64,000 bases of DNA from Halobellus inordinatus. Lineage in GTDB: Archaea > Halobacteriota > Halobacteria > Halobacteriales > Haloferacaceae. The stretch is taken from assembly GCF_024464655.1 (NCBI RefSeq), contig NZ_JANHAV010000006.1, positions 1 through 64,000 of the forward strand, given 5' to 3'. The translations under genes were made by a program, and so were the position numbers. The notes beneath the pieces were generated by a model. The model did not search any database. It saw only the letters and a program-made list of their open reading frames with translations, and had not been told where the DNA came from. This document shows, piece by piece, positions 1,208 to 13,997 of this stretch (its first letter is position 1; the number at the start of each line of letters is the position of its first letter).

Positions 1208-1984
1208 ATGACCGCGCGCGAGGATGTCGCGTTTTTGACCGGATCCGAGATCCGGATAGCCGTGCTACGAGCGCTTCGTTCGGGCGAGCACCGCCCGAGC
1301 GAACTGGCTGCGGAATGCTCGTGTGCCCGTGAGACCGCCCAGCGTGCGGTCACGGCGTTCGTCGAACGCGGGTGGGCCGAGAAGGTATCCACGAGCGACG
1401 GATATCGTCTCACGCGTGCGGGGGAACTCGTCGCGAGAAGTTACGACGAGTTCGAGGAGTGTATGGACGTCGCCAACCGCTTCGAACATCTCCTCTCGAA
1501 TCTGCGTGGGACCGCCGAGGAGATAGAGTGTGAGACGCTATCGGGGACGACGTACGCCCAGTCGACAGCGGAGAATCCGCACGCACCTATCGACCGGTTT
1601 CTCGCCATTGTGGGAGACGAACCCGTAGAGCAGTTCCGTGGGGTTACACCGATCGTGAGCCGCGTTTTCAACGAGGCTGCTGGCAGCGTCATCGGACCGG
1701 AGACCCAGGTGGAACTAATCGTCGATAAGGACGTGCTGCAGACCTCCGCTACGGAGTATCCGGAGTCGCTCGAGCGGGCGAAAGGCCTGGACGGATTCAC
1801 GCTGTACGTGTCACAGGAGCCGCTGGAGTTCGGACTCCTCCTCGTCGACGGACACGCCTATCTGGGTGCCTACGACGAGCACGGAAACCTCGTTGCGAGT
1901 GCGGACAGTGCAGAAGCCGGGTTCGTCGAGTGGGTGACTGAGGCGTTCGCACGCGTTCGAGCGAACGCGACAGAGTGGGACTAA
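1208..1984 (+). CDS. Helix-turn-helix transcriptional regulator (FilR1/DUF1724-like)
   Basis: Predicted 258-residue DNA-binding regulator. Residues 1-75 form a winged helix-turn-helix (VLRALRSGEHRPSELAAECSCAR, then RAVTAFVERGWAEKV and a DGYRLTRAGEL wing). The remaining ~180 residues resemble the FilR1 (DUF1724) effector domain common in haloarchaeal regulators, with an EPLEFGLLLVDGHAYLGAYDEHGNL segment typical of it. A TATA-like ATAAC element lies about 18 bp before the start. It is transcribed alone and ends 80 bp before the Orc-like gene, so it could regulate that locus, but nothing in the sequence proves it. Confidence 0.8.
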   Translation: MTAREDVAFLTGSEIRIAVLRALRSGEHRPSELAAECSCARETAQRAVTAFVERGWAEKVSTSDGYRLTRAGELVARSYDEFEECMDVANRFEHLLSNLRGTAEEIECETLSGTTYAQSTAENPHAPIDRFLAIVGDEPVEQFRGVTPIVSRVFNEAAGSVIGPETQVELIVDKDVLQTSATEYPESLERAKGLDGFTLYVSQEPLEFGLLLVDGHAYLGAYDEHGNLVASADSAEAGFVEWVTEAFARVRANATEWD

Positions 1985-2064: not shown

Positions 2065-3216
2065 ATGGATCTCACAGAACGCATCGAACGCCGCCGAAAC
2101 CGGAGCAGCAACAACGAGCTTATCGTCGATCGCGACTCGCTGAATCCCGCGATGCATCTCTCCGAGCCGGTCGGCCGAGAAACCCTCTTCGAGGCCTTAC
2201 TGGACGCGATCGACCCACTTTTCGATCACGCCGTGCCGCCGAACACCTACGTCTGGGGTCCACAGGGCTCCGGAAAGTCGGCCATCGTGACCGCGCTCGT
2301 ATCGGTGCTCGATACGGAGATGAGTGCCCACGACCCGTTCTACACTGCCACCCGGAGCGGAAGCGACCGCGACGACGTCCGTGTCGTCTATCTCGACGCA
2401 CGGCGGGCCGCGAGCCGCTTTCGACTCTATCGGGAGCTGCTCGACAGTCTCCTCGTAGAGTCGGTCCCGAGACGCGGGGTGAGCACCGATGCGCTGCGCG
2501 AGCGGATCGAGACTGTCACGGCCGCGAGCGAAACCGTACTGGTCGCCGTCGATCACCTCGGAGAACAGACGACAGTCGATCTGGCGGACCTCTATACGTT
2601 CTTCGAGCCGTTCGAAGACCTCGCGTGGATCGGTGTCGGCCGGACGTCGCCCGAGAAACTGTCGCTCCCACTGCCGGAACAGCAGATCCACGTGCCCGCG
2701 TACACGTACGAACTCGTCGACATCCTGACAGTCCGCGGGTCCAGAGGGCTCTCACAGACACTCGATCACGTTCACGCACAGCGACTTGCAGACTGGGCCG
2801 ACGGCGACGCTCACAACGCGCTCGCGGCCCTGTTCCTCGCCGCGAGCAACGCGGAAACCGACGGGGCAACGCGGCTCCGCGACGAGGACATCGACGCCGG
2901 GAGAGCGGCCGTACCGAGAGACGGCGTCCCGATCGGGCAAGTGCTGGCACTCTCGGACAACGAACGACTGGTTCTCGACCAGCTACTGGAACTCTCACTC
3001 GACGGCGAGGCGCGGATCGAGACCGCGGCCGAGCAGATCGCCGAGCGGACCGACCTGACTCACGGGACGGTCAAACGACTACTGTACGAACTCGCGCAGT
3101 TCGGCGTTCTGGAACGGCGGGAAGTCTCCGTCGGCGCCCAGGTGGCCGGGCGACGACCGAGCGGCGTCGCGCTGAACTTCGCCCCCCGACTGCTTACCGC
3201 ACTGCAAGGCGGATGA
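2065..3216 (+). CDS. Degenerate Orc1/Cdc6-like AAA ATPase with C-terminal winged helix
   Basis: A 383-residue protein of Orc1/Cdc6 architecture: AAA domain, then a winged helix (about 295-383). Walker A is intact (GPQGSGKS, 65-72). The Walker B position reads VLVAVDHL (158-165), with His164 where the family has the catalytic Glu. Sensor 1 reads GVGRTS instead of an Asn-type motif, and the sensor-2 region reads GDAH (247-250) instead of GDAR. It may therefore bind but not hydrolyse ATP. I chose the ATG at 2065; a longer in-frame start at 1975 would overlap the preceding gene. Its stop overlaps the kinase start (ATGA), so the two are co-translated. This suggests a regulator rather than a replication initiator, but that is inference. 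Confidence 0.75.
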   Translation: MDLTERIERRRNRSSNNELIVDRDSLNPAMHLSEPVGRETLFEALLDAIDPLFDHAVPPNTYVWGPQGSGKSAIVTALVSVLDTEMSAHDPFYTATRSGSDRDDVRVVYLDARRAASRFRLYRELLDSLLVESVPRRGVSTDALRERIETVTAASETVLVAVDHLGEQTTVDLADLYTFFEPFEDLAWIGVGRTSPEKLSLPLPEQQIHVPAYTYELVDILTVRGSRGLSQTLDHVHAQRLADWADGDAHNALAALFLAASNAETDGATRLRDEDIDAGRAAVPRDGVPIGQVLALSDNERLVLDQLLELSLDGEARIETAAEQIAERTDLTHGTVKRLLYELAQFGVLERREVSVGAQVAGRRPSGVALNFAPRLLTALQGG

Positions 3217-4787
3217 GCACGACCTACATCGGCGCGCTGGATCAGGGGACGAGCGGAACCAGATTCGTCGTCTTCGACGAACGCGGCGATCCGACCTCGG
3301 AGGCGTTCACCAGTCATCGTCCGACGACACGCGAGGGCGACCGCGTCGAGTACGACCCCCTCAAACTGTGGGGCTGTGCGACCGACGCGATCCGGCGCGG
3401 ACTGGTGCAGGCCGATGTCGACTCGGCGAGGGCGCTGCGTGCGCTCGGCGTGTCGAGTCAGCGCCAGACGGTGCTGCTGTGGGAGGCGGAGTCCGGAACG
3501 CCGGTCACGAACGCGATCAGTTGGCGCGACCGGCGGACGACCGAGCAGATCACGGAGCTGACTGACGAGGAGCGGCGGTTGATCCGCGAGCGAACCGGGC
3601 TCGAACCGGACCCGTACTTCGCCGCGCCCAACGCCAAATGGCTCCTCGATCACGGTCGCGGTCGGTGCGGCGACGAAGGCGACCGCCACGAAGGGGGCAG
3701 CAGCCGTCTGCACCGCGGCAGTGACGACCAGAGCGGCCTCCGTGAACGGGCGGAAGCCGGCGAGGTGCTTCTCGGCACCGTCGACTCGTGGCTCCTCTAC
3801 AATCTCACGGGCACACACGCGACGGACGTCACCAACGCTGCCCAGACGATGCTGTTCGACATCCACGAGTTGCAGTGGGACGACGACCTCTTGGACCTGT
3901 TCGACGTGCCGCGAGCGGCGTTGCCTGCGGTACACGCTTCCAGCGACCCGTCGGGGTTCGGCACGACCGATCCGAACGGGATCCTCAACGCTGCCGTTCC
4001 CGTGACGGGCGTGATGGGCGACCAGCAAGCGGCGCTCCTCGGACGAGTCGCGTGCGGCGAGGGCGACGCCAAAGTCACCTACGGAACGGGGAATTTCTTC
4101 CTCCAGAACACCGGGAGCGATCCGGTCGCGGCCGACGGCGACCTTCTGACGACGATCTGGTTTCAGCGGGCGGGTGCGGAACCACGCTACGGGCTCGAAG
4201 GGCCGGTATTCGCCACGGGCGCGGTGTTGGAGTGGCTCCGGACGATCGGGCTGCTCGAAGACGCGAGCGGACTCGCAGAACTCGATAGCACGGAGTCGCC
4301 GGGAGATCTGCAGCTCGTTCCGGGCTTCGGCGGTCTCGGTGCACCCCACTGGGTGCCGGACCTCCGGGCGGGAGTGTTCGGGCTACGCAGAGAAACCGAC
4401 CCCGACGACGTACTGCGAGCGGCCGTGGAGGCGATCGCGTTCGGGACGCGGACAGTCCTCGAAACGGCCGAAGCCACGACTGGAATCGAACAGCGTCCCC
4501 TCCTCGTCGACGGCGGCGCAATCCAGGACGACGAGTTCGCGCAGTGGCAGGCGGATCTCCTCGATCGGCGACTGGTTCGCTCGAGCGTGACGCAGACGAC
4601 GGCGTTGGGCGCGGGATTCGCGGCGGGTCTCGCGACAGGCGTGTGGGATTCGCTCGACGACCTCGCGCCCTGTCAACCGACCGGGCGGGCGTTCACGCCG
4701 TCCGGGGACGCGAGTGCAGTCGAGACGGCGTACCAGAACTGGGGCGACGTCGTCGACGCCGTCGTCAGGTGCCACGGCATGCGGTAA
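3213..4787 (+). CDS. FGGY-family kinase, glycerol-kinase-like
   Basis: ATP-dependent sugar/polyol kinase of 524 residues, closest in pattern to GlpK. It has the N-terminal phosphate motif GALDQGTSGTR, ISWRDRRT, the DPYFAAPNAKW segment, GVMGDQQAALLGR (catalytic Asp of GDQQ), YGTGNFF and the FGGLGAPHW signature. Two departures from GlpK stand out. The substrate-binding Arg-Glu pair (R83/E84 in E. coli) is Arg84-Gln85 here, and a Gly/Arg/His-rich insertion of about 28 residues follows KWLLDH (near residue 148). Both could mean a substrate other than glycerol. The ATG at 3213 overlaps the Orc-like gene's stop. Downstream lie an ABC importer, a demethylase and a phosphatase. Confidence 0.85.
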   Translation: MSTTYIGALDQGTSGTRFVVFDERGDPTSEAFTSHRPTTREGDRVEYDPLKLWGCATDAIRRGLVQADVDSARALRALGVSSQRQTVLLWEAESGTPVTNAISWRDRRTTEQITELTDEERRLIRERTGLEPDPYFAAPNAKWLLDHGRGRCGDEGDRHEGGSSRLHRGSDDQSGLRERAEAGEVLLGTVDSWLLYNLTGTHATDVTNAAQTMLFDIHELQWDDDLLDLFDVPRAALPAVHASSDPSGFGTTDPNGILNAAVPVTGVMGDQQAALLGRVACGEGDAKVTYGTGNFFLQNTGSDPVAADGDLLTTIWFQRAGAEPRYGLEGPVFATGAVLEWLRTIGLLEDASGLAELDSTESPGDLQLVPGFGGLGAPHWVPDLRAGVFGLRRETDPDDVLRAAVEAIAFGTRTVLETAEATTGIEQRPLLVDGGAIQDDEFAQWQADLLDRRLVRSSVTQTTALGAGFAAGLATGVWDSLDDLAPCQPTGRAFTPSGDASAVETAYQNWGDVVDAVVRCHGMR

Positions 4788-5091: not shown

Positions 5092-5109
5092 CTGGTAGCT
5101 ATGTTCTCA

Positions 5110-6318
5110 ATGAAAGACTCCGCGACGCGACGCAAGATCCTCGCATCGGGCGGTGCAGTCCTCGGCGGGAGTCTCGCTGGGTGCCTCAGTGGCGGCGACA
5201 GTGGAAGCGGTACTGGGGACGGCGACACCGGCGGGACGACGGGTACGGGAGGCGACGGCACCTCTGGGGGGAGCGGGAGTTGCTCGGGTGAGACCTACGA
5301 GGTCGGCTACGGCGACTCCCAGACGACCGTCTGTTCGGACGCTTTCCCGACCGACGAGAAACTGTACGTGTACGCGGTTCAGTCGGGGTGGATGAACTGG
5401 CCGGAGGTAATGCAAGCGTTCAAAGAGCAGTACGGCGTCCAGCTCAACGACGACGACCGGTCGTCGGGTGAGGCGCTACAGGACGCCCGCTCGCACGCGC
5501 AGAACCCCACGCACTCGGCGTTCAACGGCGGGTACACCTACGCAATCCAGGCGATGCAGGACGGATTGACTCAGGCGTACAAGCCGGCGAACTGGGACAA
5601 AGTCCCCGACAGCGCGAAGACCGACAACGGCCACTGTACGGGGACGCGGAAGGTGACGACGGCGCTCACCTACCGGAAGGACCTCTTCGAGGAGCGCGGA
5701 CTCGACGAACCGCAGACCTGGGAGGACCTGAAGCACCCAGACATTATGCAGGACCTCGCGCTGCAGACGCCGCAGGCGGCCGTCGGGCTCGCAGCGGCCC
5801 TCTCGATCAACAACGCCTACGGCGGGTCCCTCGACGACGTCCAACCGGTGATCGACTACTACAACGAGATCCAGGAAGGGGGTGCGGAGTTCACCGACAA
5901 CTTCCTGGCGCAGTTCACGAGCGGCGAGTACGGCTCGTTCATCCGCTACGACTACTCGGGGCTGGATCTGAAGTACAACGTCGAGGACATCGCCGAGGAG
6001 AACGTCGGCGTCGCGCTCCTCGAAGGGCCGAACGGGGAGGCCGGCGCGTTCAACGCGCTGTACGGCTACGCGATGCTGGCGAACGCACCGAATCCAGAGG
6101 CGGTGAAGAAATTCATGGACTACGTGCTCTCGCTGGAAGGCCAGCGGAAGTTCCTCAAGGCGTACGCGCGGCCGATCCGGGCCTCGGAGATGGATATGCC
6201 CGACGAATTCCCGCCGCAGAGCCGATACGACAAGACACAGTTCACTGTCGATCAGTCGGCGCTGGTCGAAAACCAGGAGACGATCATCCAGGACATCACG
6301 CGCGGAGCCAGCCTGTAA
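5110..6318 (+). CDS. ABC importer substrate-binding lipoprotein (AfuA/PotD-like)
   Basis: Extracellular solute-binding protein. The N-terminus is a Tat lipoprotein signal: twin arginine in SATRRKILASGG, hydrophobic core, lipobox LAGC, then a Gly/Ser/Thr linker typical of haloarchaeal lipoproteins. The mature part has the family-1 binding-protein fold pattern (LTYRKDLFEERGLDEPQTWEDL, then LEGQRKFLKAYARPIR). I used the ATG at 5110; 5101 is an in-frame alternative three codons earlier. It is first of four genes: two permeases and an ATPase follow within 3 bp or with overlap. The family includes polyamine, iron and sugar/glycerol-phosphate binders, so the substrate cannot be read from the sequence. 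The neighbouring kinase and phosphatase favour a polyol or phosphorylated compound (inference). Confidence 0.88.
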   Translation: MKDSATRRKILASGGAVLGGSLAGCLSGGDSGSGTGDGDTGGTTGTGGDGTSGGSGSCSGETYEVGYGDSQTTVCSDAFPTDEKLYVYAVQSGWMNWPEVMQAFKEQYGVQLNDDDRSSGEALQDARSHAQNPTHSAFNGGYTYAIQAMQDGLTQAYKPANWDKVPDSAKTDNGHCTGTRKVTTALTYRKDLFEERGLDEPQTWEDLKHPDIMQDLALQTPQAAVGLAAALSINNAYGGSLDDVQPVIDYYNEIQEGGAEFTDNFLAQFTSGEYGSFIRYDYSGLDLKYNVEDIAEENVGVALLEGPNGEAGAFNALYGYAMLANAPNPEAVKKFMDYVLSLEGQRKFLKAYARPIRASEMDMPDEFPPQSRYDKTQFTVDQSALVENQETIIQDITRGASL

Positions 6319-6321
6319 GCG

Positions 6322-7245
6322 ATGGCGGCCGATCAAGTATCGATGGGCACGCGGGCGACGGGTGCAGTCCGGACCGCCGTCGGATCGGTAGTGTCCCCGA
6401 CGTCCGAGCGACAGCGGGAGATACGGCGCATCGTCGCCCTCTGTCTGCCGTTCTCTGTGCTCTTGGTGTTCTCCGGCGTCTTCCCGCTGACGGAGATGTT
6501 TCGAATCAGTTTCTCCGAAAGTCGGCTCGTGACCGAGGGCTTCACCCTCGAGTACTATCGGACGATGGTGAACGATCCGTACTATCGGAACATCGCCTTC
6601 AACACGCTGTGGTTCGCGGCCGCGACGACGGTCGCGTCGATCAGCATCGCCGTCCCCGTGGCGCACGCGCTCGAAAAGTACGCGCTCCCCGCGAAGTCGG
6701 TGATCCTGACGATCCTGTCGTTCCCGAACAGCCTCCCCGGGATCGTCGCGGCGTTTATGATCATCATCCTGTTCGGAAACACGGGCGTGTTCACCAACCT
6801 CCTCGCGTTCCTGTCGGGGCAATCGCGGATCGACGTTGCCATCTCGACAGGCGTGTTGGGGCTGTTCTTCGCGTACCTCTACTCGATGATCCCGCGCGCG
6901 CTCCTGTTGCTCCGTGGAACCTACTCGGAGATTAACACGGACGCCGAGGAGGCGGCCCGCGTGTTGGGAGCGACGCCCCTCCAGACGTTCCGCTACGTGA
7001 CGCTCCCGCAGATCAAACCGGGTTTGATCGGCGCGTTCATCCTCGTGTTCCGGACCGGACTCGCCATCTTCGGAACCGTCCTGATCCTGAAGGGGCTGCT
7101 CGTCTGGACGCTCCAGATCGACCGTGAACTCGCCCAGGGCTTCAACATCGCGCAGGCCTCGGCGATGGCGACGATCTGGTTCGTCTTTGTGTTCGGGTTC
7201 ACGGTGTTCGCACTTCGGTACACCAGTGCGGAGGTGAGCATATGA
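6322..7245 (+). CDS. ABC importer permease, first subunit
   Basis: Integral membrane subunit of 307 residues with about six hydrophobic segments. The cytoplasmic EAA loop (EAARVLGATPLQTFRYVTLPQIKPGLIGAF) is clear near residue 213 and contacts the ATPase. The N-terminal ~35 residues are polar. It starts 3 bp after the binding-protein stop and overlaps the second permease by the ATGA arrangement, so subunit levels are translationally coupled. The pattern fits the PotB/FbpB-type binding-protein-dependent transport family. Confidence 0.88.
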   Translation: MAADQVSMGTRATGAVRTAVGSVVSPTSERQREIRRIVALCLPFSVLLVFSGVFPLTEMFRISFSESRLVTEGFTLEYYRTMVNDPYYRNIAFNTLWFAAATTVASISIAVPVAHALEKYALPAKSVILTILSFPNSLPGIVAAFMIIILFGNTGVFTNLLAFLSGQSRIDVAISTGVLGLFFAYLYSMIPRALLLLRGTYSEINTDAEEAARVLGATPLQTFRYVTLPQIKPGLIGAFILVFRTGLAIFGTVLILKGLLVWTLQIDRELAQGFNIAQASAMATIWFVFVFGFTVFALRYTSAEVSI

Positions 7246-8075
7246 CCGAACGATTCCAACGGGGCAGCCTCTCTGCCCGCTTCGGCCGGCCAGTCGTCAA
7301 ACTCGTGTTGGTGCTGACGCTCGTCTTCCTCGCGTTCCCGGTCGTGATGACGTTCGTCAGTTCGTTCGCCTCCGATTGGTTCGGCGTCTTCCCCAGCGGC
7401 TTCGTCACGATACAGAACTGGGAAGACGTCATCGTCGGTACCGGCGTCGGTGCCGACGTCGCAGTCGGGTCCTCGCTGGCGTACAGTACCGGGCTCGCTC
7501 TCGGTGGAGTCGTCATCAACCTCATCGTCGGCGTGCCGATCGCGTACGCGGTCGCACGCTACGACTTCTGGGGGCGAGACTGGGTCAACGTCTTCGCGAT
7601 TCTCCCGCTGGCGCCCGGGATCATCCTGGGTGTGGCCTTCCTCCGGACGTACCCGGACCTCTCGACGTCCGGCATCGCCCTGATTATCGGCTACTCGCTA
7701 CTGAAAGCACCGTATATGGTGATGGCGGTGCAGTCGAGTTTTCAGTCGATGGATCTCCAACAGATCGAAGAGAGCGCCCGCTCGCTCGGTGCGTCGTGGC
7801 CGCGCACGTTCCTCACGGTGATCGTCCCGAACGCCCGGACGGGCATCATCGCCGGCTCGATCATCTCCTGGACGCTCGCGGCCGCGGAGTTCAACTTCTC
7901 GTACATCGTCTACTCTCGCGGGACGCCGCCGCTCGCGATCTTCCTGTTCAACAACATCACGAACGCCTCGTTCCTGAACGCGGCCGCGGCCGTCTCGGTG
8001 TTCTTCCTGCTCATCGCACTGGTCACGGTCTCGCTGCAGATCGTCGGTAACAGAGGGACGATTCGGAGGGTCTAA
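7242..8075 (+). CDS. ABC importer permease, second subunit
   Basis: Second membrane subunit, 277 residues, about six transmembrane segments. The EAA-type loop reads EESARSLGASWPRTFLTVIVPNARTGIIAG (near residue 179). It resembles PotC-type permeases. Its ATG lies within the stop of the first permease and its own stop is 3 bp before the ATPase gene, so it belongs to the same operon. Substrate unknown, as for the binding protein. Confidence 0.88.
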   Translation: MTERFQRGSLSARFGRPVVKLVLVLTLVFLAFPVVMTFVSSFASDWFGVFPSGFVTIQNWEDVIVGTGVGADVAVGSSLAYSTGLALGGVVINLIVGVPIAYAVARYDFWGRDWVNVFAILPLAPGIILGVAFLRTYPDLSTSGIALIIGYSLLKAPYMVMAVQSSFQSMDLQQIEESARSLGASWPRTFLTVIVPNARTGIIAGSIISWTLAAAEFNFSYIVYSRGTPPLAIFLFNNITNASFLNAAAAVSVFFLLIALVTVSLQIVGNRGTIRRV

Positions 8076-8078
8076 CGA

Positions 8079-9116
8079 ATGGCAAAAGTCTCACTCGAAA
8101 ACGTCACGAAACGCTTCGATTCGACAGTCGCCGTCGACGACGTCTCGATCGACATCGCCGACGGCGAAGTCATGGGAATCGTCGGCCCGTCCGGCTGTGG
8201 CAAGACGACGGCGCTCCGGCTCGTCGCCGGCTTCGAGACCGCCACCGACGGGACGATCCGCTACGACGACGAGGACGTCACGCCCGTCCCGCCGGAGAAT
8301 CGAAACGTCGGCTTGGTCTTTCAGTCCTACGCGCTGTTCAACAATATGAGCGTGCTCGGGAACGTCACGTTCGGGCCGAAGATGCACGGCGTCGGCAAAG
8401 CTGAACGCCGAGAGCGCGCGCGTGAACTACTCGAACTCCTCGACATCGAGGAGTTGGCCGACCGCGACCCCCAGACACTCTCGGGCGGCCAGCAGCAACG
8501 CGTCGGCCTCGCCCGCGCGCTCGCGATCGAGCCCCGGATTCTGCTGCTCGACGAGCCGATGACGGGGCTCGACGCGAAGCTGAAACAGACCTTACGGCAA
8601 GAGCTCGGCCAGTTGCTCGACGATCTCGGCGTGACGACGTTGTACGTCACGCACGATCAAGAGCAGGCGATGTCGATGTGCGATCGGATCGCCGTGATGA
8701 ACGACGGCCACCTCGAACAGATCGGCACGCCGGCCGAGATCTACGAGGAGCCGGCAAACGAGTTCGTCGCGGGCTTCATCGGCACCGCGAATCTGCTCGA
8801 TGCGACGGTCACTGACGGGCGGATCTCGTTCGGATTCGGCGACGTCGACGCGCCCGACGGACTCCGGTCGAGCGGCGACGTGACGGTTCTCGTTCGCCCG
8901 GACGACATCCGCGTCGGCGACGGTGAAGGCGACGCCGCCGTCGAAGTGACGAACCTGTTCTATCAGGGCGAGCACATCCAGGCGACGGGGACGCTTGCTG
9001 ACGGCCAAGAACTGACACTCCAACTGGATCGGTCGCTGACGAACGTCGAGACGGGCGACACCCTGTCGGTCGGCTTCGATCCGGAGACGCTCCACGTCAT
9101 CCGCTCGACCAAGTGA
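8079..9116 (+). CDS. ABC importer ATP-binding protein (PotA/MalK type)
   Basis: Cytoplasmic ATPase of 345 residues that powers the importer. Motifs in order: Walker A GPSGCGKTT, Q-loop FQSYALFNNM, signature LSGGQQQRVGLARALA, Walker B ILLLDEPMTGLD, and the H-loop in TLYVTHDQEQAM. Residues ~240-345 form the TOBE regulatory domain of PotA/MalK-like ATPases (GTANLLDATV, VLVRPDDIRV). It is last of the four contiguous importer genes. The demethylase gene starts about 170 bp later behind its own promoter. Confidence 0.93.
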   Translation: MAKVSLENVTKRFDSTVAVDDVSIDIADGEVMGIVGPSGCGKTTALRLVAGFETATDGTIRYDDEDVTPVPPENRNVGLVFQSYALFNNMSVLGNVTFGPKMHGVGKAERRERARELLELLDIEELADRDPQTLSGGQQQRVGLARALAIEPRILLLDEPMTGLDAKLKQTLRQELGQLLDDLGVTTLYVTHDQEQAMSMCDRIAVMNDGHLEQIGTPAEIYEEPANEFVAGFIGTANLLDATVTDGRISFGFGDVDAPDGLRSSGDVTVLVRPDDIRVGDGEGDAAVEVTNLFYQGEHIQATGTLADGQELTLQLDRSLTNVETGDTLSVGFDPETLHVIRSTK

Positions 9117-9196: not shown

Positions 9197-9246
9197 CGAG
9201 TGCCATCTAGCGCCACTTATTTACTGTCACTACCCAGATTGGAGGT

Positions 9247-9256
9247 AATTTTTAAG
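9247..9256 (+). promoter_or_regulatory. TATA box of the demethylase gene
   Basis: AATTTTTAAG, centred near 9252, predicts transcription start near 9279. That leaves a leader of about 9 nt before the ATG at 9288 and would exclude the in-frame ATG at 9273. Confidence 0.5.
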
Positions 9257-9287
9257 ATGACGACCCGAGAAGATGTTTGTTGGGCAA

Positions 9288-10631
9288 ATGACTGATCCAA
9301 GCCTCGAAGACGCGCTGGACGCGGCAGGTAGTCCGATGGACTTGCTCCGTGAAAACCGGGGACGACACCCCTATCCGGTTCCCAGCGAGCACACGAACTG
9401 GATCGAGGAGGAACGGAGCTGGCGAGAGACGTGCAGCCTGTCGGACCTCTCTCACCACCAGAAAGACCTCTACGTCGAGGGGCCCGACGCGCTGGCCGTC
9501 TTCGTCGACCTCGGAGCCAACGACTTCGAGGGGTTCGAGCCCGGTCAGGCCAAACAGTTCGTCGCCTGCAACACCGACGGCTACCTGATCGGCGACGCGA
9601 TCCTGTTTTACCTCGACGACGAGCGGTTGAAACTCACCGGCACACCGATCGCGCCGAACTGGGTCGAGTACAACCTCGAAACGGGCGATTACGACGCGGT
9701 CGCGACAGCGGACGAGCGGTATCACGACAAGGACGAACCGCACAGAACCTTCCGGTATCAGCTACAGGGGCCGAACGCACTCGACGTGATGAGAGCCGCA
9801 GTCGAGGGGTCGCTCCCGGAGATTCCGTTCTTCAATTTCGACGAGGTGACGATCGCAGGCGTCGACGTGCGCGCGTTGAAACACTCGATGGCGTCGGACG
9901 TCGGCTTCGAGATCTGGGGGCCGTGGGAGGCGAGCGAGACCGTTCGAAAGACGATCCTCGACGCCGGCGAGGACCACGGCCTCCGCCAACTCGGCGAGAA
10001 GAGCTACAAGGCGCAGGGCTCTGAGAAAGGCTGGATCGCCCGTCCGCTCCCCGCGATCTTCGGCGACGAGATGGTGGAGTATCGGGAGTGGCTGGACGGG
10101 GACAGCTACGAGGCGAGCAGCACGCTCGGCGGGAGTTTCGCCGCCGACGACGTATCCGAGTACTACCTGAATCCGATCGAACTCGGATACGAGCGATTCG
10201 TCGATTTCGCCCGCGACTTCCCCGGCAGAGACGCGCTCGCGGAAATGGCAGAGGCGTCGCAGCGCCAGAAAGTAACGCTCGTCTGGGACGACGACGACGT
10301 CATCGACCTGTTTGCGTCGTTACTGCGAGACGGAGAGACGTACAAGTACTTCGACCTCTCGATGCCCTACTGGGCGGTCTTCCACTACGACGAGGTCCTG
10401 AGAGGCGGTGAGACCGTCGGTCTCTCGAAGTACTTCGGCTACACCTACAACGAGCGTGCCGTCCTGTCGCTGGCACTCGTCGACGAGGAGTACAGCGAAC
10501 CTGGAACCGAGGTGACGCTGGTGTGGGGTGAACCGGGCGGTGAATCGCCGAACCCCAAAGTCGAATCGCACACGCAGACGGAGATCAGCGCCACGGTGGC
10601 GCCGAACCCGTACGTCGAGGCCGAGCGCTAG
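9288..10631 (+). CDS. Folate-dependent demethylase, LigM/GcvT-like aminomethyltransferase family
   Basis: About 447 residues of the glycine-cleavage T-protein superfamily, which moves one-carbon units to tetrahydrofolate. It has the T-protein order: HTNWIEEERSWRETCSLSDLSHHQKDLYVEGPDAL near the start, then FEIWGPWE. The C-terminal GYTYNERAVLSLALVDEEYSEPGTEVTLVWGEPGG resembles the LigM/DesA O-demethylases and related DmdA-like enzymes more than GcvT, and no other glycine-cleavage gene is nearby. It probably removes a methyl group from an O-, N- or S-methylated compound brought in by the adjacent importer (inference). The start at 9288 fits the TATA box. The importer lies upstream and a phosphatase downstream, all on this strand. 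Confidence 0.82.
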   Translation: MTDPSLEDALDAAGSPMDLLRENRGRHPYPVPSEHTNWIEEERSWRETCSLSDLSHHQKDLYVEGPDALAVFVDLGANDFEGFEPGQAKQFVACNTDGYLIGDAILFYLDDERLKLTGTPIAPNWVEYNLETGDYDAVATADERYHDKDEPHRTFRYQLQGPNALDVMRAAVEGSLPEIPFFNFDEVTIAGVDVRALKHSMASDVGFEIWGPWEASETVRKTILDAGEDHGLRQLGEKSYKAQGSEKGWIARPLPAIFGDEMVEYREWLDGDSYEASSTLGGSFAADDVSEYYLNPIELGYERFVDFARDFPGRDALAEMAEASQRQKVTLVWDDDDVIDLFASLLRDGETYKYFDLSMPYWAVFHYDEVLRGGETVGLSKYFGYTYNERAVLSLALVDEEYSEPGTEVTLVWGEPGGESPNPKVESHTQTEISATVAPNPYVEAER

Positions 10632-10800: not shown

Positions 10801-11589
10801 ATGAGCATCGCCGAGCACGAGGCCGCGATCTTGGACCTGGATGGGACAGTCTATCTGGGCGACAAACTCATCCCGGGTGCCGGCGAGACCGTGCAGTTGC
10901 TGCGCGAGGAGGTCGGAGAGGTGCTGTTCCTCACGAACAAGGCCATCGCGCGCCGCGGCGACTACAGCGAAAAGTTGCGACGACTCGGCATCGACGTCGA
11001 GCGCAGCGACGTCGTCAACTCCGGGTGGGTAACCGCCCAGTACGTCAGCGAGCGCTTCCCTTCCGCGGCGGCGTTCGTCGTCGGCGAAGGCCCGCTTCTC
11101 GAGGAGTTCCGGGAGGCGGGCGTCACGACAGTGACAGAGACACCGGGCGACATCGTCGTGGCATCGATGGACCGCCACTTCGACTACGACACGCTCGAGA
11201 CCGCGCTCCGAACGCTCGAAGACGGTGCGCCGTTCCTGGCGACGAATCCGGACCGGACCTGTCCGACTGAGAAGAGTGCGATCCCGGACGCCGCGGGGAT
11301 GATCGGCGCCATCGAAGGCGTGACGGGACAGACCGTCGACGAGGTGCTCGGGAAGCCGTCCGCGACGATGGTCGAGACGGCTCTCGGGGAGGTCGGCGTC
11401 GACCCCGGCGACTGCCTGATGGTCGGCGACCGGATCGAGACGGACATCCGGATGGGCGACCGTGCCGGGATGACCACCGTCCTCGTGCTCACGGGAGTGA
11501 CTGACCGCGAAATGATCGCCGACGTGAGCGTCGATCCCGATTACGTCCTCGACTCCATCGCCGATGTCGAAGGTCTCCTCGTGGAGTGA
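10801..11589 (+). CDS. HAD-IIA family phosphatase (NagD/AraL-like)
   Basis: Cytoplasmic phosphatase of 262 residues. Haloacid dehalogenase motifs: I DLDGTVYLGD (nucleophile Asp near residue 13, DxDGT), II FLTNKA, III with Lys in LGKPSA, and IV GDRIETDIRMGDRAGM. The cap between motifs II and III is of the NagD type (FLATNPDRTCP). Family members dephosphorylate sugar, glycerol or nucleotide phosphates. Next to a glycerol-kinase-like enzyme it could oppose or follow that kinase. I chose the ATG at 10801 because the in-frame extension to 10729 is Arg/Gly-rich and unlike a protein start. It is convergent with orc1, with a 54-bp gap. Confidence 0.88.
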   Translation: MSIAEHEAAILDLDGTVYLGDKLIPGAGETVQLLREEVGEVLFLTNKAIARRGDYSEKLRRLGIDVERSDVVNSGWVTAQYVSERFPSAAAFVVGEGPLLEEFREAGVTTVTETPGDIVVASMDRHFDYDTLETALRTLEDGAPFLATNPDRTCPTEKSAIPDAAGMIGAIEGVTGQTVDEVLGKPSATMVETALGEVGVDPGDCLMVGDRIETDIRMGDRAGMTTVLVLTGVTDREMIADVSVDPDYVLDSIADVEGLLVE

Positions 11590-11643: not shown

Positions 11644-12849
11644 TCAGACGTCGTCGCTCTCGGTCAGGACGTCTTTGACCACTTGAGGATCCTCCAGAAG
11701 CTGGTGCTTCGTGTAGCTCCCCTCGGCGCTCCCGCCGCTGTGTTTGGACTGCTCGATGATGTCGAGGAAGGCGTGTTCTTTCAGCAGATCGCGGACGCGA
11801 CGTAGCGAGAGCGTATCCGAGCCCTGGCCGTCGCAGATGTTCTCGTAGACCTCGTAGACGCGACTCGTTCGGAATCCCTCCTGTCGCTCGCTCGACAGCG
11901 AGAGGATCGCGAGGGCCTGCAACACGTACCGGGAGTGCGGCGTCGACCCGCGGATGAGTTCGCGGAAGCGATCGGTCTCCGCACGCTCGCGAGCCTGCGT
12001 CACGAACTCCTCGCGGACGATCTGTGCGCCCTTCGATTGAGCGATCTCACCGGCGTACCGAAGAATGTCGATCGCCTTGCGGGCGTCACCGTGTTCTCTG
12101 GCTGCGAGCGCTGCCGCGCGCGGGATCGTCGAGGGGTCGAGGACGTCGTCGCGGAAGGCGTCCGACCGCGCCTGCATAATGTTTCGGAGTTGGTTGGCGT
12201 CGTACGGCGGGAAGACGAACTCGCGTTCACAGAGGCTGGATTTGACGCGTTCGTCCATCCGGTCTTTGTATTGGATCTTGTTGCTGATGCCGATCACGCC
12301 GAGTTTGCACTGGTCGATCTTGCCGGCCTCCCCCGCCCGCGAGAGTTGCATCAGAATGTCGTCGTCGGAGAGTTTGTCGATCTCGTCGAGCAGAATCAAG
12401 ACGACATCGTACTGTGCATCGAGGATTCGCCACAGCCGCTTGTAGTACGTCGACGTGCTGAGTCCCTTGTCCGGGACTTTGATTCCGGTAACTTCGGATT
12501 CGTTGACGCCGTCCGCGATGGTTTGGACCGCTTGCGTCTCGGTCGTGTCCTGTGCGCAGTCGACGTAGGCGAACGTCGCTTTCACGTCTTCCTCGCCGGC
12601 GGTTTCCACCAACCGCTGTGAGACGTACTTCGCACAGAGCGACTTACCCGTACCCGTCTTGCCGTAGATGAGAACGTTGCTCGGACTCTGACCGAAGATC
12701 GCCGGATTGACCGCCGCCGCCAGATCAGAGATTTCGTCGTCGCGACCGACGATCCGTCCCTCCCCCGGAAGGTGGTTGATCTCCAAGAGCTCTTTGTTGG
12801 AGAAGATGGGGTCCTCTCGGGTGAAGAGGTCGTCGCTGGTGTTCGGCAT
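11644..12849 (-). CDS. orc1: Orc1/Cdc6 family replication initiator
   Basis: Origin-binding AAA ATPase, 401 residues. Walker A YGKTGTGKS (about 62-70), Walker B VLILLDEIDKL with the catalytic Glu, sensor 1 GISNK, sensor 2 GDARKAID, then a C-terminal winged helix (about 310-401) that binds origin boxes. All catalytic elements missing from the Orc-like protein at 2065 are intact here. I chose the ATG at 12849 (MPNTSDDLF) over upstream in-frame ATGs because those run through an origin box and look non-protein. The gene reads away from the origin region, and one origin box lies only 9 bp before its start, so it probably regulates its own transcription. Confidence 0.95.
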   Translation of the reverse strand: MPNTSDDLFTREDPIFSNKELLEINHLPGEGRIVGRDDEISDLAAAVNPAIFGQSPSNVLIYGKTGTGKSLCAKYVSQRLVETAGEEDVKATFAYVDCAQDTTETQAVQTIADGVNESEVTGIKVPDKGLSTSTYYKRLWRILDAQYDVVLILLDEIDKLSDDDILMQLSRAGEAGKIDQCKLGVIGISNKIQYKDRMDERVKSSLCEREFVFPPYDANQLRNIMQARSDAFRDDVLDPSTIPRAAALAAREHGDARKAIDILRYAGEIAQSKGAQIVREEFVTQARERAETDRFRELIRGSTPHSRYVLQALAILSLSSERQEGFRTSRVYEVYENICDGQGSDTLSLRRVRDLLKEHAFLDIIEQSKHSGGSAEGSYTKHQLLEDPQVVKDVLTESDDV

Positions 12850-12857
12850 ACTACAGG

Positions 12858-12878
12858 ACACCGGGTTTCCGGTGAAAT
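12858..12878 (-). repeat. Origin recognition box 1
   Basis: Read on the minus strand it is TTTCACCGGAAACCCGGTGT plus one base, one change from the core. It lies directly before the orc1 start codon. Confidence 0.88.
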
Positions 12879-13047
12879 GCGTTGTTATTTCCCCCGGTTC
12901 GACGGTGATGCTGTCGGACACATTTTCGGGAAGCATCGCGACATCCTGTGGTACTGGGCATCTTCGTACGGTTATGTCCGACGGCTGACGGCCACGTTGT
13001 TCCGACAGGGCACGGCGACTGATTCGACAGACTACCGGACGACACAC

Positions 13048-13068
13048 ACACCACGTTTCCGATGAACG
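13048..13068 (-). repeat. Origin recognition box 2
   Basis: On the minus strand it reads GTTCATCGGAAACGTGGTGT. The dyad around GGAAAC is kept, with a few changes from the core. Confidence 0.8.
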
Positions 13069-13109
13069 AGGGAAATACCGGGGTAAGGTCCAGATGAAAC
13101 AGGGGATCA

Positions 13110-13130
13110 GTTTCACCGGAAACACGGTGT
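13110..13130 (+). repeat. Origin recognition box 3
   Basis: Exact core TTTCACCGGAAACACGGTGT preceded by G. A run of four G lies a few bases upstream (AGGGGATCA). Confidence 0.92.
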
Positions 13131-13335
13131 GTGGCGAGGCGTTAGAATCTGGCCGACAACGGTACTTCCCAAGCGAGGACGCAGATACGCACTGAAACAG
13201 GCCAATACGTGGGATCGTCGGCTATCGGTATTCCACGGCGAACAAGTTTGATCGTATCGCTGTGGGGTTCTCAGAGCGTCCGTCCGATACCTGCTCGAAA
13301 AAGCGGCGCGGTGTCTCGGGTCCGTTTCCGATCGA

Positions 13336-13436
13336 ATTACTTCGATGAAGCTAGTTTATAACTTTTCGATTGGGGTCAATGGACGGTGACGAGTATCTAG
13401 TATATATTTGTTGCTTTATAGAGGACAGATATTGGT
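13336..13436. other. AT-rich candidate unwinding element
   Basis: The most A/T-rich part of the intergenic region, with TTTATAACTTTT, TATCTAGTATATATTTG and CTTTATAG. It lies between left boxes 1-3 and right boxes 4-7, the position expected for the duplex unwinding element. Confidence 0.7.
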
Positions 13437-13492
13437 TCGGTACGCGCGGATGCGTGGTCGTCGTCGCTCGTGACGAGGGGGACTACCAGCGG

Positions 13493-13513
13493 GTTTCACC
13501 GGAAACGTGGTGT
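13493..13513 (+). repeat. Origin recognition box 4
   Basis: TTTCACCGGAAACGTGGTGT preceded by G; two differences from the core. A run of five G lies about 12 bp upstream. Confidence 0.9.
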
Positions 13514-13683
13514 GTCTCCGCGTGGAATTCGCCACACTTCGACTGTTCTCGACATCGCGAGTGAGGTCTGCGGTCTTTCGGGGCTACACGATGTAGCGGA
13601 GAAATTGGAGATAGCTATCAACTCAAGCCGATCTAATTACGCTCAATCTGAAATAGTCGGTCTCGGATCCGACTCTTCTTGGT

Positions 13684-13704
13684 GTTTCACCGGAAACACG
13701 GTGT
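13684..13704 (+). repeat. Origin recognition box 5
   Basis: Exact core TTTCACCGGAAACACGGTGT preceded by G, identical to box 3. Confidence 0.92.
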
Positions 13705-13775
13705 GTTCCCGTGAGAAACTGAGGATCTCGTCCACCAAGTCGAGACTGCTATCTCGAAGGGGGTCCCAATTCCCC

Positions 13776-13796
13776 GTTTCACCGGAAACTCGGTGT
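13776..13796 (+). repeat. Origin recognition box 6
   Basis: TTTCACCGGAAACTCGGTGT preceded by G; one change from the core. A run of five G lies upstream, near 13758. Confidence 0.9.
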
Positions 13797-13800
13797 TCGC

Positions 13801-13820
13801 GATTCACCTTCACACGGTGT
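13801..13820 (+). repeat. Degenerate origin recognition box
   Basis: GATTCACCTTCACACGGTGT keeps TCACC and the CACGGTGT end but has lost the central GGAAA and one base. It starts 5 bp after box 6, so it looks like a decayed box or a low-affinity site. Confidence 0.5.
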
Positions 13821-13842
13821 TCGCCGGATCCAGTTCGCTGGC

Positions 13843-13863
13843 ATTTCATCGGAAACACGGTGT
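13843..13863 (+). repeat. Origin recognition box 7
   Basis: ATTTCATCGGAAACACGGTG followed by T. One change from the core inside the dyad (CACC to CATC). Confidence 0.85.
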
Positions 13864-13997
13864 GGGTGGCTTTGACGGACGTGGGCGCCGTTTTCTGGTC
13901 ACACTCTTCGCCTGTCCCCTTCGAGTCGACGCCAACAGCTGAACTCGAACCCACGTAGTCGCAAACCGTTTCCCGGTCGGGACCGTCCCGAGAGACA

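Follow-up and report, generated by a model that had tools for sequence, protein, structure and literature searches.

An Orc1/Cdc6-Derived Protein Without Hydrolysis Residues as a Candidate Local Regulator of Glycerol Catabolism in Haloarchaea

Results

Gene Cluster in the Window

The analyzed stretch of DNA (64 kb, herein referred to as the window) contains a gene for an Orc1/Cdc6-like protein of 383 aa, starting with ATG at position 2065 and ending with TGA at 3214-3216 (Table 1). Its stop codon overlaps the start of the following kinase gene by ATGA (3213-3216), as described in the first-pass annotation. The genes for TBP and for a FilR1/HVO_A0261-type regulator are located upstream of this cluster (550-1984) and are conserved in three congeners. 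In the loci L054, L055, and L057, the genes follow the order TBP, FilR1-type HTH protein, Orc1/Cdc6-like protein, kinase, binding protein, two permeases, ABC ATPase, GcvT-like protein, and HAD phosphatase.

The congener G352 has a window-type cluster and, beside another glycerol-kinase gene, a second member of the clade to which the window protein belongs (the glp-locus clade, see below). Thus, the window gene is a paralogue. The window kinase scored 467.5 bits against the NCBIfam model for GlpK (TIGR01311), below the cut-off of 590.35. The position equivalent to Glu84, which we take to be a glycerol-binding residue as in Escherichia coli GlpK, is occupied by Gln in all four window-type kinases, each from a different species, and by Glu in 37 others. 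Both observations suggest that the substrate of the window kinase may differ from plain glycerol. The window genome encodes its canonical GlpK on contig C22, with no glpA, clade member, or dyad (see below) nearby.

Table 1. Positions of the genes, protein motifs, and predicted operator in the window
Feature	Position	Strand	Comment
HVO_A0261/FilR1-type winged-helix regulator	1208..1984	+	Part of conserved genus cluster
Orc1/Cdc6-fold protein, glp-locus clade; proposed transcriptional regulator	2065..3216	+	383 aa
Walker A, GPQGSGKS	2257..2280	+	Residues 65-72, intact
Walker B, Asp163-His164	2551..2556	+	Glu in initiators
Sensor-2 position, His250	2812..2814	+	Arg in initiators
C-terminal winged-helix domain	2953..3183	+	Residues about 297-373; IclR/Lrs14-type HTH matches
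Diverged glycerol-kinase-like FGGY kinase	3213..4787	+	Gln at the Glu84-equivalent position
ABC transporter, solute-binding protein	5104..6318	+	
ABC transporter, permease 1	6322..7245	+	
ABC transporter, permease 2	7242..8075	+	Assigned by position and conservation in genus clusters
ABC transporter, ATPase with TOBE_2 domain	8079..9116	+	
Predicted operator dyad TTTAC-N20-GTAAT, intergenic	9220..9249	.	Some 25-40 bp ahead of the GcvT-like gene
GcvT-like (aminomethyltransferase folate-binding) protein	9273..10631	+	
HAD-family phosphatase	10804..11589	+	
Canonical Orc gene	11644..13125	-	

Fold and Descent of the Protein

Pfam matches of the 383-aa protein include AAA_16 together with weak matches to Cdc6_lid and HTH. 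Against the NCBIfam orc1/cdc6 model (TIGR02928) the protein scored 76.3 bits, below the cut-off of 181.3, and the profile of its family matched Sulfolobus Cdc6-1 (2qby_A) with an E-value of 4e-29. The AlphaFold2 model (pLDDT 88) has Orc1 of Aeropyrum pernix (2v1u, Z 23.9) as its best match in the PDB and also matches 2qby_A (Z 23.5); these structural matches span 328-341 residues. All three parts typical for the Orc1/Cdc6 superfamily, i.e., the AAA+ core, the Cdc6 lid, and the C-terminal winged helix, were found. The similarity of the modeled fold and the profile match argue that the protein is a relative of Orc1/Cdc6 by both fold and descent. In the winged helix, the residues T335, R338, Y341, R351, G362, R363, and P365 are invariant among the aligned relatives.

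Loss of Catalytic Residues

The Walker A motif is intact, the Walker B Glu is replaced by His164 (VAVDH, with D163 and H164), VGR is found in place of the ISND-type sensor 1 with loss of the Asn, and the sensor-2 Arg is replaced by His250 (GDAHNAL). That Walker A is intact, that the Walker B Glu and the sensor-2 Arg are replaced by His and sensor 1 is changed, and that the canonical Orc of the window keeps all of these had been noted in the first-pass annotation and was confirmed here; the motifs of the canonical Orc read LDEID, GISNK, RVKSSL, and GDARKAI. Additionally, the Box VII (Arg-finger) segment, which was not on that list, is deleted.

For a comparison of these motifs, 25 further Orc paralogues from haloarchaea were aligned, one of which was the window's canonical Orc. 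In all 25 of these, the residue after the Walker B Asp is acidic (Glu in 21 and Asp in 4 of one subfamily), and both the Box VII segment and the sensor-2 Arg are present. The Asp-His Walker B, VGR, the Box VII deletion, and the sensor-2 His were found only in the glp-locus clade. A tight haloarchaeal Orc family with an Asp-Asp Walker B (LDDVNYL; L161, L254, L256, and L258) reads SSD at the sensor-1 and GDLRVGIDLL at the sensor-2 position.

Within the glp-locus clade, D163 and H164 were found in all 41 aligned sequences and H250 in 40 of them. These sequences come from diverse genera, so the fixation of both His residues refutes a single decayed copy. Thus, neither the Asp-Glu Walker B nor the sensor-1 Asn, Box VII Arg, and sensor-2 Arg of initiators are found in the clade, and His164 likewise sets it apart from Orc1-2-type proteins, which have intact Walker A and B motifs with hydrolysis as an off switch. 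In six relatives forming one subclade (L041, L042, L043, L047, L049, and L050), the Walker A Lys is replaced by Thr (GPxGxGTS); judging from this motif, nucleotide binding may be gone in the subclade.

Distribution and Selection

In the phylogenetic tree, the 41 clade sequences lie on one side of a branch with a support of 100/100 and a long stem. Matches to the candidate regulator were found in 276 of the 392 genomes from the order of the window organism. When 295 genomes sampled across the phylum were searched, matches came from 32 genomes, all of them in this order, and no match with E<=1e-40 was found outside it. Pairwise dN/dS values among the four window-type copies are 0.10-0.18, indicating that the window gene is not decaying. 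A pseudogene reading was rejected on these values and on the clade-wide conservation of residues.

Linkage to Genes for Glycerol Catabolism

The linkage to a kinase gene, noted initially for the window only, is conserved and is specifically a linkage to glycerol kinase: glpK was found in 112 of 120 loci with the candidate regulator gene. At the genome level, GlpK is present in 275 of the 276 genomes with the candidate regulator (Fisher's test, 2e-35). The usual loci also contain glpABC and a gene for a membrane protein. Most of the eight loci without glpK are cut by contig ends; an apparently truly unlinked copy was found in a Haloferax genome (L044). The gene orders vary, including glpK-membrane protein-regulator, glpABC-regulator, and the regulator gene divergent from glpA. 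Thus, the association is not a simple drag of synteny.

In Haloquadratum walsbyi, HQ1732A adjoins glpK (PMC5496347), and the position and description of the membrane protein suggest that it is related to HQ1732A. This protein (e.g., L037:8641-9762) is encoded beside glpK in most loci, has no Pfam match, and is a possible glycerol transporter.

In Haloferax volcanii, the gene orc15 (HVO_1537; Table 4 in PMC2841640), annotated as a replication initiator, adjoins glpA1B1C1 (HVO_1538-1540; PMC10294847). The congener H. gibbonsii has a clade member at this place, with the same gene order and divergent from glpA, so that HVO_1537 presumably belongs to the glp-locus clade. No glp role for orc15 was reported in the papers found, and nothing on a link between Orc1/Cdc6 and glycerol was found among open-licence papers.

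Inverted Repeat in the glpA and glpK Promoters

In loci with the candidate regulator gene, word counts revealed enrichment of AGTAAA/TTTACT in the divergent region of glpA and glpK. These words pair as an inverted repeat in 52 of 77 such loci (at most one mismatch; shuffled sequences give an expectation of 0.5) and in 0 of 22 genomes without the gene. With extra control genomes added and redundant loci removed, 42 of the 66 loci that carry the gene had the dyad TTTAC-N19/20/24/25-GTAAA, compared with none of the 31 that lack it (p 1.8e-10). The spacing is sharply peaked at 19 (35), 24 (8), and 20 (6), with at most one locus at any other spacing. The density of half-sites is 7.0 per kb in the presence of the gene vs. 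0.9 per kb in its absence.

The 31 control loci still contain glpA, glpK, and often the gene for the membrane protein. The latter was also considered as a cause of the dyad and was rejected, because this neighbor persists without dyads. Among 15 larger loci lacking the candidate regulator gene, comparison of neighbors by clustering, rather than by a scan for HTH domains, revealed no conserved neighbor that clearly substitutes for it.

The presence of the candidate regulator changed state at least 14 times on the GlpK tree. In seven well-supported independent pairs, the exact dyad tracks the gene in 4.5 pairs on average and never behaves in the opposite way, a borderline result (p 0.03-0.5, median 0.06); a looser half-site measure tracks the gene in 6.3 of the 7 pairs (median p 0.03). 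When the tree is taken into account, the support for a dyad that depends on the gene is therefore modest, though consistent. The exact dyad is absent from 24 of the 66 loci with the gene, and in Haloferax no clear dyad was found at either copy of the gene.

Each genome contains only 0-3 copies of the strict dyad pattern, most of them at glp, so the regulon appears to be local. In nearly all of 30 glpK promoters, the TATA element starts 20-23 bp before the dyad, which would therefore cover the expected transcription start of glpK. Archaeal repressors act over the transcription start, and this position points to repression.

In the window genome, the strict pattern was not found, and only a relaxed form with N20 is present. 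The dyad at 9220-9249 is the sole match in the window (at most one mismatch, gap 19 or 20) and is kept at the same place, upstream of the GcvT-like gene, in L054 (9512). In the four window-type clusters, a gap of 20 gives 5 matches vs. 0-2 for other gaps. All the gap-20 matches are intergenic and lie ahead of cluster genes; those in congeners include L055 2777 (HAD, perfect), L055 8539 (solute-binding protein), and L057 17923 (HAD). Thus, the DNA specificity seems to be retained with slightly altered spacing. Additionally, L054 has one gap-19 dyad upstream of its regulator gene. Upstream of the window's own candidate regulator and kinase genes, the dyad is weak or absent.

Canonical Orc and Putative Origin

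At least five ORB-like repeats (GTTTCACCGGAAACACGGTGT), both direct and inverted, are located upstream of the canonical Orc gene of the window (13043-13877). This region is likely a replication origin. Near the start of the candidate regulator gene (1900-2300), no ORB-like repeats were found.

Discussion

Members of the glp-locus clade are already present in databases as Orc/Cdc6 proteins or AAA ATPases. Haloarchaeal orc genes without an associated origin have also been counted before (PMC3528665), while a link of such genes to glycerol was reported in none of the papers found. Taken together, the observations make it likely that the proteins of this Orc1/Cdc6-derived clade no longer serve as initiators but bind DNA and control the transcription of the glycerol (glp) genes locally, probably as repressors that act through the dyad. 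The clade would thus represent a non-initiator regulator of the Orc1 type. The first-pass annotation had interpreted the window gene as an initiator paralogue turned into an ATP-binding regulator of a catabolic locus. The regulatory part of this reading is supported by the finding of the dyad only where the gene is present, while ATP binding is not secure given the six relatives without the Walker A Lys. The catabolic locus can now be specified as that for glycerol, the window copy being a genus-level paralogue of the glp system.

Most likely, a dimer of the regulator would bind TTTAC-N19-GTAAA through its winged helices, and the occupied inverted repeat would cover the start region of the glpK and glpA transcripts and thereby repress them. 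The dyad could also be bound by a different factor lost together with the clade member. An ATP-hydrolysis switch of the kind known for Sulfolobus Orc1-2 would be absent, because Walker B, sensor 1, Box VII, and sensor 2 are lost; where nucleotide is still bound, it would serve as a structural element or co-ligand and not as a timer. In S. islandicus, cells are not viable with the Walker B mutant E154A of Orc1-2, since the regulation can no longer be switched off (PMC9738581). In view of the natural change in Walker B and the other losses of hydrolysis residues in the clade, we propose that release is driven by a pathway metabolite, which may be glycerol, glycerol 3-phosphate, or dihydroxyacetone phosphate. 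More tentatively, and with a somewhat less than even chance in our estimate, His164 and His250 may have reshaped the old ATP site into a sensor of a metabolite or phosphate; the hydrolysis-dead, ligand-gated repressor would then be the missing glycerol regulator. The window paralogue would govern a side cluster with the diverged kinase, the ABC transporter, the GcvT-like protein, and the HAD phosphatase. Regulation of glycerol or polyol catabolism is the best reading.

A different mode of regulation, which we regard as rather unlikely, is that of an activator or co-regulator that needs ATP binding and helps to recruit the transcription machinery to glp promoters when glycerol is present. Sulfolobus Orc1-2 does activate DNA-repair genes and needs ATP binding for this (PMC9738581), most clade members have an intact Walker A motif, and the dyad at 9220-9249 in the window abuts a TATA-like promoter region instead of lying downstream of TATA. 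At glpK, however, the dyad begins 20-23 bp past the TATA start, over the expected transcription start, and the Walker A Lys is gone in six relatives, both of which speak against this mode. The tight linkage and the four-base overlap with the kinase gene would equally suit a post-translational partner, e.g., of GlpK or GlpABC, and archaeal glycerol kinases lack the allosteric sites of the bacterial enzymes (PMC12853182). In such a case an unrelated regulator would read the dyad. We consider the partner role improbable, since none of the 31 non-redundant loci without the gene has a dyad even though glpA and glpK persist there, and since many of the invariant residues fall into the winged helix.

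The fold, the superfamily, and database names such as orc15 in H. volcanii (PMC2841640) would agree with a protein that is still a replication initiator, serving a minor origin at the glp locus. This explanation is hardly credible: apart from Walker A, none of the catalytic motifs of initiators remains, the repeats found at the canonical Orc gene of the window are absent beside the candidate regulator gene, and predicted origins are missing for roughly one third of the orc genes in haloarchaea, as found by Wu et al. (PMC3528665).

If regulation of glp genes by the clade holds true, it would provide the missing regulator for catabolism of glycerol, on which many haloarchaea chiefly depend as a carbon source. 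An AAA+ protein of the initiator type without its catalytic residues is yet retained over most of an order, and the annotation 'orc/cdc6' in haloarchaea does not always denote a replication gene. The analysis thus yields a candidate regulator, a candidate operator, and a testable model.

Among known systems, archaeal Orc1/Cdc6 initiators (2v1u, 2qby, and the haloarchaeal paralogues) share the three-domain fold with the glp-locus clade over almost the whole length. The clade differs from them by the loss of catalytic residues, the absence of ORB repeats nearby, and the linkage to metabolic genes. Bacterial GlpR (DeoR family), haloarchaeal GlpR, and TrmB would be comparable as local regulators of glycerol or sugar loci but have an unrelated fold; haloarchaeal GlpR represses the genes for fructose and glucose, not glp (PMC12853182). 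A similar case is Orc1-2 of Saccharolobus islandicus, the regulator of the DNA-damage response, which is also a non-initiator Orc1 with an AAA+ domain, an ISM region, and a winged helix, and acts as a transcriptional regulator at promoters (PMC9738581). Orc1-2 keeps Walker A and B and a switch by ATP binding and hydrolysis, acts globally, and recognizes ANTTTC (PMC9738581), whereas the glp-locus clade has lost the hydrolysis residues, and both its local range, the glp loci, and its associated long inverted repeat set it apart.
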